A stretch of 64,000 nt of DNA from Apostichopus japonicus. Its lineage: Eukaryota; Echinodermata; Holothuroidea; Aspidochirotida; Stichopodidae. Numbering within the stretch: position 1 is the stretch's first letter; each line of letters starts with the position of its first letter. Below the pieces are notes generated by a model. It was not told the origin of the DNA. It searched no databases and saw nothing but the letters and a program-made list of their open reading frames with translations. The stretch covers positions 9,785,499 to 9,849,498 of the forward strand of contig NC_092565.1 of the NCBI RefSeq assembly GCF_037975245.1, in the 5' to 3' direction. A program made the position numbers and the translations under genes. This document shows, piece by piece, positions 11,927-56,676 of this stretch.

Positions 11927-13233
11927 TTAGGATGTCGTCAGCGGTGGCGATATAGGCACAGCGGCAGGGTTCGAGACACAGGGAGAAAGTTGTGGTGGCG
12001 TTGAAACCCTTTGTGACAGCTGGTTGGCTTCTACGGGGCTGCTGGACTGCTGATAGCTACATGATCCAACATTCTTCATGAGGTCGGCTTCCTTCTTCAC
12101 CTTCTGACGAAGATGTATTTTAGAGTGCCGTTTCCTCTCGTCGCTCCTGGCAAACTTCCTACCGCAAGTCTCGCACTGGAACGGTTTCTCGCCGGTATGC
12201 GTTCGGATGTGCGTTGTAAGATGGTCACTGCGACTGAAGTTTCGCAGGCAGATGCGGCACTGGAACGGCTTGTGTCCCGTGTGAATCCTGATGTGCCTGG
12301 TCAGTTCATCGCTCCTTGAGAATCGACGGTCGCAGTTTTCGGCTGGACAAGCGTACGGTCTCTCGTGGGGAGGAGTCTTCCCCTTTTGGAGATATTTCCT
12401 TGGTTTCGAGGTGGTCGTCTTTCCTACACTACTGGGGATCACCTGGTAGGGTTGGCGCAGCACGTCGGCGTTCGGTGTTATTTGCATCATGAGACCCTCA
12501 CTAAGTCCTTGGTGCCTACTCACAGCAGCTGCTTGTGGCAACTGTTGTGGGCCAGATACAGGTGGTTGGCTAATCTCTAGATCGTCCGCATGCAGGATGG
12601 GGCGGCCAAAACCAGGACCGCTTGTCACGTCGGTAGAGTTACCCGGCCAGCTATACCTCATAACCTCCAGTTTGATCGGGGTATCGAATTGTGTACAAGG
12701 AATGTTAGTTGTACTGATCAATTGCGATTGATGGAGATTAATGTTCTGAGGCATCGTTTCAAATGATGTCGGTGATGAATCCATTGACACTGTTGTGGGT
12801 AAGGTGTAACAACACGAAAAGGATTGCAGCTGCGACGTTATGTCGGTTGTGGTAATGGGGTCGTAACAGGTCGAAGTTGGTGTAAAGGTGTCTGTGGGCA
12901 TGGGATGCACTGGACTTCCACCCACGATAGACTGGCTACATGGGGGTTCGTTGATGAGGCTGCTGGAACTAGTAATAATTCCACCAATTGTATCAGTTAA
13001 AGATGTGATTGGTCGATCTGTCCCAACTGGTGTCGAGGAGCTTGGCCACCACCCTGAGTGAGGTGAACAGCTGTTATCGGGGCTTGCGCTCGGTACAGGT
13101 GAGACACTGTTGTGAGTTGTAGCTGGGGACATCGCAGTAGGATGACCGGTTGGGTACGTGTTCATGTTGTGATTCGTGTCGATATATCCACCCTCTGTCA
13201 CCTGAGGCTTGTACTCAAATTCTTCCATGGTAT
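11927..13233 (-). CDS. Egr: Egr coding exon 2 (activation region and zinc fingers)
   Basis: The exon follows the acceptor TTGTATCTTACAG and runs to a TAA stop (11927-11929). The open frame continues upstream of the acceptor into a hydrophobic stretch that is translated intron: it precedes the AG, and the phase fits exon 1. It contains the Ser/Thr/Pro-rich region, a short Gln/Pro segment ([12 protein letters not shown]), the three fingers and a 61-residue Ser/Pro-rich tail starting [10 protein letters not shown]. The tail is much shorter than in vertebrate EGR1. Confidence 0.95.
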
Positions 13234-53777: not shown

Positions 53778-56676
53778 CTGTGTGATAAACATAATAAAGA
53801 GAGAAAGAGAGAGAATGAGAGAAGCAACAGCTGTTAGCAAACTGTTTTTTTTTTATCAACTGGGAAAAAGTGCCATTGTAGGTAAATATATAAAGTTAGA
53901 TGGCTCGACGTTTCGATCCTAGCAGGATCTGCTTCAAAGTCTGCCCTTGAAGAATTTCCTGTCAGGGTCGAAACTGCAGGCACTGAAGATGATAAAAGGG
54001 ATAGAATTCGTCCACTTTCAAGGCCGGATACAGTTTTATTTTGGGTGGGGGGGGGGGGCAGAGTGACAGGTTGATGTACATAAATTTATAATCTGACATC
54101 AAAAATATTGTCCGGACGAAGAGGTGGATAGGGTAGTGCATAGTAATGGAGATGCCAAATTTCAAACCTTTTTCGTAACTTTATATCTCAAGTGTAGACA
54201 AAATTACTTGTGAAGGTGATAAGGTTTTTTTAACATCATGATGGGTCGCATGTAATGTTTAGTGGAGGGGGAGGGGTGGTACTGAGCTTCTGTTTCCCGA
54301 GGTCCCTGGTGCTAGGCCATTGTGATGTAACCATGAGCATATGAAAAATTTCTCTGAGAGCACAGACGATGTTAGGCTTATCCGTTTATCGTCACCGTTA
54401 CAATGTGATTTAGTGAATAAAATGATAGAAAATATCACTGAGAAAGAGTTATCTGGTCCGATTTACAAGTTCTATACAAAACAACACTACAATCAATATC
54501 ACGTACCTAATCAGCATGTGTAATTAAACAGGTTAACCAAAAGTTACCACTCCACCCCCCTCCCTCCCCCCCCCCCTCCTTCCTCATAATATGAGAATGT
54601 CTTTAAACTACGAGAGTAGACAAATGACAAGAGTAAGTTGCTGGTGACGGCTGTCATGAAGTACTTAGATGTGAAATCAACACAAAAAGCGTAATTACGT
54701 CTAGCCCCCTCGTATACATACGACCTCTGTTATCATCACCGCCCGAACAGAATTTACATCATATATTTGTCCACATGTTTAGATTATGTTTAATAAGTTT
54801 CACCAGAGTGAAAATTGTGGGATTTGAAAACCACTCTTTTACACGTATTGCGTGAACAACAATTTATGCTTATTGAGTTATTATCACTCATTGAATTAAT
54901 GTATGTCTCGTAATTTTGATTAAACTATTACGTGGCAACGTACTTTAACTAAGTCTATAAATAACATTACATGTGCTCTTGACAGAGCCCTATTCCTTCG
55001 CATTGTATGTACATACGTGCTTTTAAATACACTGTAAATATCGCTTCTAGTACCACGATGTTTCGAAGTAGCTACAGATTGTAACAGCATCATCCATGTA
55101 CCGACACTACAGTAAATCATATACATTTCTGTACAAATGTAATAACATAACGTAAATGAAGATATGTTTACCTGTTAGGGTGTCAGCTGTGAAAACATTA
55201 CCATCTGCTACATCTGATCCCTATAAGAAAAAGATGATACATTTAATAAAACCAACTTATAATATCTACAATAGGTTATCGCTTGAAAGTTACTTATATA
55301 CACCCATGCACCCCTCTAACTGTCTAGTTTTTCCGTTTTCATTTGATTATCATACTTTTCTTTAACGCCGAGTAAGGAAGGATAAACATCATGTTTATAA
55401 TCAAGTGTTTGCAACAACAACAAAAAAAAAAAAAAAAAAAACACTTTATCTTACTTTTTCTTATGCGAAAAAAACAACGAAATGTCACTGCGATTTATTA
55501 GTAAATGTCTGGTCAAAATGGGCTTCTTACCTTGACATTCATGACCAGCCAATGAATCCAGTATCTAGAGTATGGATCGGCATGGCTGGGTGCATCAGGA
55601 TCAGCCATGATTAATGTATAGTAACTATTCTATATGGGAGAAGAGAAATAAATAAACCACACGACGAAAATATATTCATGTTTATATAGAAACGCGTCTT
55701 CTCCAGCATGTTAGTATTATGTCGGTCTATCGGGTATGTGTGGCAAAGCAGCTATTTGAACTTTGTCAGTAATTTCCGCATAACAATCAAACAATCTGGG
55801 GGGGGGTATCCAGGATTTATTAAGGAGGGTGGGGTGCTGAGGTATTTGGATCCGACTCCCAATTAGAGGTTGCGGGGTCCCTAAATTCTGCTGCCCCCCC
55901 CCCCGTGACAAAATAGACGTGAAATGGTCACTCTGAGGCATAATAGTTAGGCTATAAATAGGTCTAGAATAACGTCTACACGCAACGTTGTGCTTATAAT
56001 TTTTTTTTTTTTGTGGATTGAAAACAAATCCATCACCTTATACGGAAAGAAAATATAAGACCGTCTGATGTTCACTCTATTGACGAATCTGTCATCCATC
56101 ATTTACGGTTCGAATCACTCCAAGATTAATGTGGGCTATGTCATCCAGTTACAGAGTTGTTGACAATTCATAATCATGGACCTTAAATATGAATGTAAGA
56201 GACTGACTTCGGTCAGCTTACGGCTTTGATAAGCCAATGATGGCTTCTTTGCGAGTTCCTGCTTGCAGGAGGGTCTAAAACACATACACACACACATACG
56301 TACATCTGTTAGAAGAAAAACTAACCAACAGAGTCATTACATCGATCTGAAATAGACACATTGATTCGCTTGGTCATTGAAATGAAATGAAACCTCGAAA
56401 AGTTGAATTAAATACTTTGACTGAATATTTATTCGATCTTACCAAGTTTGCTTTGCTGAATCTCACCAAGTCAGGTGGATCCGTATGCTGGTCGAATTCT
56501 TCGATCTGTCTGAAACCGCCGCATTCGATAGCCTTGTCTGGATTATTACAGAAAGAGACGAGAAGATAATCCATCCCGCTGCAGAACGGTCCCGTTACTT
56601 CCTCCACTATAGCATCGGCAGAGGTTGCAAATAGCAAAATGGCGAGAATTGTTGTCAAAACGGAAAGACCCCACAT
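53578..56676 (-). CDS. PEBP4: Secreted PEBP4-like phosphatidylethanolamine-binding protein, complete copy (4 exons)
   Basis: This is a PEBP-fold protein; the family binds phospholipid headgroups or other anionic ligands. Exons are 56443-56676, 55531-55629, 55172-55220 and 53578-53777. All have GT/AG ends and compatible phases (0, 0, 1), giving 193 residues. Residues 1-22 are a signal peptide ending ADA. Residues 23-78 hold a Cys-containing N-terminal segment (C32, C43, C52) leading to [13 protein letters not shown], which lines up with the PEBP4-type N terminus rather than PEBP1. Then come [12 protein letters not shown] (CR1, ligand Asp), [10 protein letters not shown] (pocket His) and [14 protein letters not shown] (CR2, second pocket His). 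Length fits the family core without the extended C-terminal tail of mammalian PEBP4. It lies upstream of Egr in the same orientation. Confidence 0.88.
53778..55171 (-). other. PEBP4-like copy 1, intron 3
   Basis: Contains the retroelement remnant at 53905, a poly-G/C tract near 54046 and C-rich sequence at ~54555-54580. No further exon was seen. Confidence 0.6.
53905..53945 (-). mobile_element. Retroelement remnant with hammerhead-like motif
   Basis: On the minus strand GAAGCAGATCCTGCTAGGAT is followed by CGAAACGTC: a stem GATCC/GGATC between GAAG-A and GAAAC. The same core occurs at 2440-2465 on the plus strand. The layout recalls the type I hammerhead ribozyme of Penelope-like elements, though CTGATGA is not intact. 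It lies in the last intron of PEBP4-like copy 1. Confidence 0.35.
55172..55220 (-). CDS. PEBP4: PEBP4-like copy 1, exon 3
   Basis: A 49-nt exon between TTCTTATAG and GTAAAC, coding [16 protein letters not shown] plus the first base of a split Glu codon. It bridges the two conserved PEBP regions and has the same size as in copy 2. Confidence 0.8.
55531..55629 (-). CDS. PEBP4: PEBP4-like copy 1, exon 2 (DPDAPS)
   Basis: A 99-nt, 33-codon, phase 0-0 exon between CCCATATAG and GTAAGA. It encodes [12 protein letters not shown] and [10 protein letters not shown], the first conserved PEBP region and the pocket histidine. Confidence 0.88.
55630..56442 (-). other. PEBP4-like copy 1, intron 1
   Basis: Holds a G/C-rich repeat remnant (~55795-55915), a poly-T tract (~56001) and the triple-hairpin block at 56170-56285, which also contains a PEBP-like open segment. 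Confidence 0.6.
56170..56285 (-). repeat. Three consecutive small hairpins in PEBP4-like intron 1
   Basis: On the minus strand three stem-loops follow each other: CCTGC-AA-GCAGG, GCTTA-N9-TAAGC and CTGAC-CGAAG-(G)TCAG. The regular stem-loops suggest a short mobile repeat or a structured RNA tail. No copy elsewhere in the window was seen. Confidence 0.35.
56443..56676 (-). CDS. PEBP4: PEBP4-like copy 1, exon 1 (signal peptide)
   Basis: Start chosen at the ATG in GCAAGATGTGGG (A at -3), because the frame upstream has no ATG. It codes 78 residues: the hydrophobic leader [15 protein letters not shown], cleavage expected after ADA, then the mature N terminus. The exon ends AACTTG|GTAAGA in phase 0. 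Confidence 0.85.

Follow-up and report, generated by a model that had tools for sequence, protein, structure and literature searches.

We analysed a 64,000-nucleotide stretch of the genome of the sea cucumber Apostichopus japonicus (C5:9785499-9849498 of the assembly, called here the window), which carries an Egr gene and a pair of genes encoding PEBP4-type proteins, together with 100 kb of flanking sequence on each side. Coordinates are those of the window, with negative values lying to its left. Across the window and its flanks the gene order on C5 was FHIP-family (+), BIN3 (-), ADO (+), Egr (-), PEBP4a (-), PEBP4b (-) and LMAN2 (+). ADO lay approximately 45 kb from Egr, and PEBP4a was found 38 kb upstream of Egr on the same strand. 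A first-pass annotation of the window had assigned Egr and a PEBP4-type gene to the minus strand, PEBP4 lying 5' of Egr, and the gene models and their order bore this out. It had also taken these two to be the only firm genes in the window, an undercount by one, as PEBP4b lies in tandem.

Genes around Egr

Open reading frames (ORFs) of at least 85 amino acids in the flanks were read by eye, and those between 64 and 107.7 kb down to at least 68 amino acids. Low-complexity ORFs were removed, positions -6.4 to -5.0 kb were left out, and -5.0 to 0 kb consists of N. Genome-wide searches covered the assembly of 671,581,487 bases in 35 contigs, and the human PEBP4, BIN3, LMAN2, RHOBTB2 and BIN1 query sequences were reconstructed and not drawn from a database. 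The central genes were as follows.

-42.2 to -39.9 kb, minus strand: BIN3, by tblastn with human BIN3
-34.2 to -33.3 kb, plus strand: ADO, by Pfam PCO_ADO
11927..13233, minus strand: Egr, second coding exon, coding for three C2H2 fingers and containing the stop codon (Pfam zf-C2H2, 2.2e-16)
15254..15473, minus strand: Egr, first coding exon, with the start codon (15473) and an in-frame GT-AG join to the second
53578..53777, minus strand: PEBP4a exon 4 and stop codon, from the gene model
55172..55220, minus strand: PEBP4a exon 3, with a longer loop (18 residues versus 13 in PEBP1-type proteins; loop cut by hand)
55531..55629, minus strand: PEBP4a exon 2, core (Pfam PBP on the joined protein)
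56443..56676, minus strand: PEBP4a exon 1, encoding a cysteine-bearing N-terminal part and a hydrophobic start that is likely a signal peptide (by eye)
60892..61088, minus strand: PEBP4b exon 4 and stop codon (tblastn with PEBP4a, 1.2e-9)
62466..62514, minus strand: PEBP4b exon 3, equal in length to that of PEBP4a (49 nt), from sequence
63396..63494, minus strand: PEBP4b exon 2, equal in length to that of PEBP4a (99 nt; tblastn with PEBP4a, 1.2e-10)
65010-64750, minus strand: PEBP4b exon 1, outside the window, from the gene model

The long ORF at 11930-13369 joined an upstream exon in frame, giving an Egr protein of 508 amino acids from two coding exons. Three Zif268-type C2H2 fingers near the C-terminus placed it in the EGR family, and residues 335-423 matched an EGR1 chain of the Zif268 type (4r2a) in one stretch (8.7e-52). 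Two ZNF568 chains had a higher summed score than 4r2a, spread over many fingers, because each of them contains many fingers. A search of the genome with the finger region (150 of 1127 candidates scored) gave a single match of 100% identity, the window itself. Since the second-best match by score had 49% identity, and none of the 79 matches listed besides the window exceeded 56%, we take Egr to be a single-copy gene, as judged from sequence. Most of the 80 matches listed came from a large cluster of C2H2 zinc-finger ORFs at C17:1.38-1.76 Mb.

PEBP4a is encoded by four exons with GT-AG introns, and its protein of 193 amino acids, with the start codon at 56676, matched the Pfam family PBP (PF01161) above the cut-off (3.2e-17). 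PEBP4b, its tandem relative, lies on the same strand and has exons 2 and 3 of equal length, and the exon 4 of PEBP4b also gave a PBP match above the cut-off. Both genes encode a hydrophobic start and a cysteine-bearing N-terminal part, as judged by eye. Genome-wide, the PBP family was matched by 6 exons among 7 candidates, three of them in the C5 pair and three on C21. The first-pass annotation had proposed a check of whether the window's genes belong with PEBP1 or with PEBP4. In a tree of nine rows built on the core domain, the C5 pair joined human PEBP4 with a support of 90/96, and the three PEBP genes on C21 fell with PEBP1. Two alternative groupings that placed the C5 pair with PEBP1-type rows were rejected (approximately unbiased test, p-AU 0.027 and 0.0095). 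The loop before the HRY motif, when cut by hand, was longer in the three PEBP4-type rows (17-18 residues) than in the other six (13). By its sequence, then, the C5 pair groups with PEBP4-type proteins, apart from PEBP1.

ADO was identified by a match to PF07847 (PCO_ADO, 2.1e-46), the sole match to this family in the genome. Human BIN3 aligned by tblastn to three linked pieces (8e-31) and to a fourth (7.6e-4), with a shared ALSIVxDD end, and in the whole genome the BIN3 query matched only the gene's own three exons. Human BIN1 gave no match at E up to 1, so that among the BAR proteins compared (BIN3 and BIN1) the gene is closest to BIN3. No Pfam match to the BAR domain was obtained in the two short BIN3 exon pieces tried.

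EGR neighbourhoods in vertebrates

In human, BIN3, EGR3 and PEBP4 all have minus-strand orientation, PEBP4 being upstream of EGR3; human ADO (+) and EGR2 (-) are convergent. All of these strand relations, which in human belong to two EGR loci, were present around the single Egr of the sea cucumber. As in the mammalian EGR3 neighbourhood (human 8p21.3), BIN3 is found on the 3' side of Egr and PEBP4 on its 5' side, on the same strand. That neighbourhood differs in that it is not known to contain ADO and has one PEBP4, compared to the tandem pair seen here, and in the position of RHOBTB2, which is adjacent in mammals, whereas the best RHOBTB match in the sea cucumber was also on C5, 13.3 Mb away. 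The human EGR2 neighbourhood (10q21.3) resembles the sea cucumber locus in containing ADO and in the convergent orientation observed here; it differs in that neither BIN3 nor PEBP4 is known there. ADO lies at the distance from Egr given above in the sea cucumber.

Published gene lists agree with these relations. The pig list reads BIN3, EGR3, PEBP4 (PMC6504931) and the sheep list RHOBTB2, PEBP4, EGR3, BIN3 (PMC9179888), both printed lists being taken as map order. The adjacency of EGR3 and PEBP4, which the first-pass annotation had given for human, is matched by both lists. A study of teleost synteny describes EGR3, BIN3, RHOBTB2, BMP1, PEBP4, STC1 and IDO2 as a conserved block on human 8 (PMC3890633), and the same EGR3 block on human 8 also appears in PMC4346930 and PMC8254242. 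On chicken chromosome 22, EGR3, BIN3 and PEBP4 fall within one 1-Mb bin, unordered (PMC6678660). ADO-ZNF365-EGR2 is treated as one locus at human 10q21.3 (PMC7241744). The annotation's reading was thus partly upheld. Its microsynteny is supported, as the EGR-PEBP4 pair is matched in mammals and BIN3 and ADO match as well; the regulatory linkage that it suggested is plausible.

Further out, the following genes and ORFs were recognised, and several flank ORFs could not be given a name.

-66.4 to -60.5 kb, plus strand: FHIP-family (RAI16-like) gene
67.4-77.6 kb, plus strand: LMAN2 (tblastn with human LMAN2, 4.7e-54)
84.6-98.7 kb, minus strand: array of 7tm_1 receptors, of which one ORF was put to Pfam
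99.7 kb: SDR-like ORF, named by eye, without a Pfam match
~107.7-136 kb, plus strand: RasGEF gene, KNDC1-like (matches to KIND and RasGEF_N, both short of the cut-off)
153.2-154.0 kb, minus strand: zf-tcix gene, C2orf42-like, by Pfam

The receptor array (84.5-98.7 kb) comprised at least four rhodopsin-type ORFs in tandem that looked alike by eye. We take EGR genes to lie on human chromosomes 2, 5, 8 and 10, FHIP2A/B on 10 and 8, LMAN2 and LMAN2L on 5 and 2, KNDC1 on 10 and C2orf42 on 2. The location of the human homologues of these other C5 neighbours on EGR-bearing chromosomes offers a lead but does not amount to a test: it includes only neighbours that could be named, the SDR-like ORF does not fit, and POLR3D of human 8p21.3 is on C6 here. 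The RAI16-like gene has a relative on C14. A tie between the C5 gene and FHIP2B (8p21.3; FAM160B2 in PMC4346930) is only suggestive, and either the C5 or the C14 copy could be FHIP2.

Sequence between the genes

The stretches on both sides of Egr are gene-poor. The interval on the PEBP4a side and the palindromic sites found within it were as follows.

15474..53577, no strand: interval of 38 kb from the Egr coding sequence to PEBP4a, where control elements of Egr are proposed to lie; no Pfam family at cut-off in the ORFs scanned
15780, 16984, 17861, 18886, 25166, 35644, 41473, 46605: TGACGTCA sites, exact matches in the window

The 21 ORFs scanned between 15.7 and 53.5 kb contained no Pfam match at or above the curated cut-off, and two matches in these ORFs, to Cadherin_4 and DUF7704, lay below it. 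Between ADO and Egr, five window ORFs had no Pfam match, and the remainder of that stretch was read by eye. One exon-like ORF at 33878-34114 (plus strand) matched no Pfam or NCBIfam family. An 84% copy is present on C9, with less similar or broken ones on C16 and C19; the ORF was therefore rejected as a conserved intervening gene and taken to be a duplicated fragment. Two tandem arrays gave rise to long spurious ORFs, one at 38742-40426 (72-bp unit, 23.5 copies) and the other at 61294-61755 (20-bp unit, 23.1 copies).

We searched the sequence for regulatory motifs. The palindrome TGACGTCA, a cAMP response element (CRE), occurred 8 times in the window compared to 0.55 expected from shuffles, and all eight sites were between Egr and PEBP4a. 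Of the 17 sites counted over 264 kb, 15 fell between ADO and PEBP4a (p = 2e-6). The palindrome ranked 55 among 12,087 eight-letter words, the higher ranks being led by words from simple repeats. Four arbitrary 10-kb stretches on other chromosomes contained 3, 3, 1 and 0 sites (7 in all), and three 3.2-kb loci on C21 contained 0, 0 and 1. Since the control stretches were similarly dense, the 15 sites in 82 kb around Egr are near the ordinary level of the genome, and it is the outer flanks that are low (2 in 177 kb). The palindrome was patchy in its distribution and occurred far above the shuffle expectation.

Just upstream of Egr exon 1, at 15740-15790, a full CRE (15780) is accompanied by TGACGT half sites at 15748 and 15769. 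This arrangement is in keeping with an inducible promoter, but given the genome-wide excess it proves nothing. CArG boxes were not enriched in the interval between ADO and PEBP4a (3 inside versus 21 outside), and no exact CArG box was present between 11.7 and 38.0 kb. Nor were AP-1, E-box or TEAD motifs enriched in the interval from ADO to PEBP4a. The ETS core CCGGAA was more frequent inside than outside (18 versus 11, p = 0.0007), and TGACG, ACGT and CpG were mildly raised inside; these counts had no genome control and were not used as evidence.

Origin and maintenance of the gene order

The same neighbours, in the same order, in the sea cucumber and in the vertebrate lists and loci make this a conserved microsyntenic block. 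One ancestral order, split by complementary loss between the EGR3 and EGR2 loci, is the simplest account, and chance would not readily place three neighbours on the expected side and strand. It is probable, in our judgement, that BIN3, ADO, EGR and PEBP4 form an ancient deuterostome block of four genes that is whole in the sea cucumber and has been kept together by Egr control elements. Gene identities, order and strands, the copy numbers for Egr, BIN3 and ADO, and the PEBP4 type were observed here, and the vertebrate neighbours are in print; the human strands are background knowledge, and we infer the enhancer cause.

The ancestral order would have been BIN3 (-), ADO (+), EGR (-), PEBP4 (-). 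In vertebrates the block would have been copied by two genome duplications and then thinned by complementary loss, such that BIN3 (3' side) and PEBP4 (5' side) remained with EGR3, and ADO (3' side) with EGR2. The control elements of Egr, an inducible regulatory gene, may be scattered through the gene-poor sequence on either side and in or near the neighbours. If so, a rearrangement that parted Egr from PEBP4 or ADO would also deprive it of enhancers, with BIN3, ADO and PEBP4 as bystanders, and shared control DNA would have held the neighbourhood together for more than 500 million years. In Patiria miniata and Strongylocentrotus purpuratus, conserved microsyntenic pairs that include Egr are reported to contain many conserved non-coding sequences and to lie inside topologically associating domains (TADs) (PMC13317027).

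Several observations weigh against this account. The PEBP tree is small and has long branches, its human sequences were reconstructed, its support for the PEBP4 grouping was below the level that the tool marks with a star, and the two groupings put to the p-AU test were chosen after the tree had been seen. A CREB-responsive Egr domain, marked by a CRE array, was dropped as a candidate, the genome control being equally dense in what was a small control sample. POLR3D, a gene of human 8p21.3, was located on C6 and not on C5; linkage therefore fades away from Egr. To our knowledge, neither the SDR-like ORF nor the array of G protein-coupled receptors has a tie to Egr neighbourhoods. An origin in the deuterostome ancestor rests on two points, the sea cucumber and the vertebrates, and two hemichordate genomes are described from dot plots as having no apparent microsynteny to each other (PMC11175523).

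The order could instead be old and real and have persisted through plain inertia, with few breaks by chance and no regulatory constraint. Echinoderms are described as retaining macro- and microsynteny generally (PMC13317027), and the control elements at the locus are postulated ones. Against inertia, the BIN3-EGR3-PEBP4 order of mammals recurs even though POLR3D lies on another chromosome in the sea cucumber, and Egr is among the developmental genes with old pairs inside TADs (PMC13317027). We regard inertia as unlikely, though as the alternative most to be reckoned with. A less probable alternative, to which we give little weight, is shared regulation, in which PEBP4 would be co-expressed with Egr via the same elements and would be a true target and not a bystander. 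In human, the variant rs2241261, tied to kidney cancer, reportedly makes contact with PEBP4 as well as with EGR3 (PMC7597051), which also lends outside support to Egr enhancers in or near PEBP4, and Egr and PEBP4 lie on one strand. However, one gene encodes a transcription factor and the other a secreted protein, and the two are not known to share a task. A coincidental arrival of some unrelated gene for a secreted PEBP next to Egr in the sea cucumber lineage is very improbable: the genome does hold three other PEBP matches, on C21, and the window's pair is a local tandem duplication, but the pair is of the PEBP4 type in matching orientation, BIN3 and ADO are also on the expected side and strands, and with about 20,000 genes the chance of a given named gene lying beside Egr is, by simple arithmetic, about 1 in 10,000.

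Microsynteny of Egr as a kind was expected. Egr has already been named in print as an ancient microsyntenic block (PMC13317027, 2026, citing Irimia et al. 2012 and Simakov et al. 2013). As in other ancient microsyntenic pairs and blocks, in which Egr is named, a developmental gene and unrelated neighbours remain in order across phyla; the partners of Egr are unnamed in the available text of PMC13317027, whereas here they are named in a holothurian and tied to two vertebrate EGR copies. The locus also resembles genomic regulatory blocks in its gene-poor surroundings and in having a regulatory gene flanked by unrelated genes of kept order. In such blocks conserved non-coding elements act on a target gene, as is proposed here for Egr. 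Among the matches listed in a search of open-licence literature by title and opening of the abstract, no paper described PEBP4 beside Egr outside vertebrates, or the division of neighbours between EGR2 and EGR3. The available portions of PMC11175523, PMC8851819 and PMC6292497 do not mention Egr or PEBP, and those of PMC6085378 and PMC12856578 add nothing on gene order.

What began as a pair of genes is thereby extended to a block of four with matching strands, and the remains of this block in vertebrates are found partly at EGR2 and partly at EGR3. Two proposals become testable: that Egr control elements lie in the PEBP4 and ADO neighbourhoods, and that the division of neighbours accounts for the division of expression among EGR copies. 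More tentatively, and with considerable doubt, we suggest that EGR had a two-sided control landscape before the vertebrates arose, with one part on the PEBP4 side and the other on the ADO/BIN3 side, and that this was divided such that EGR3 went with PEBP4 and BIN3 and EGR2 with ADO, the kept neighbours marking the enhancers that each copy inherited. If this is true, the sea cucumber locus would serve as an unsplit reference for the divergence in expression of EGR2 and EGR3.

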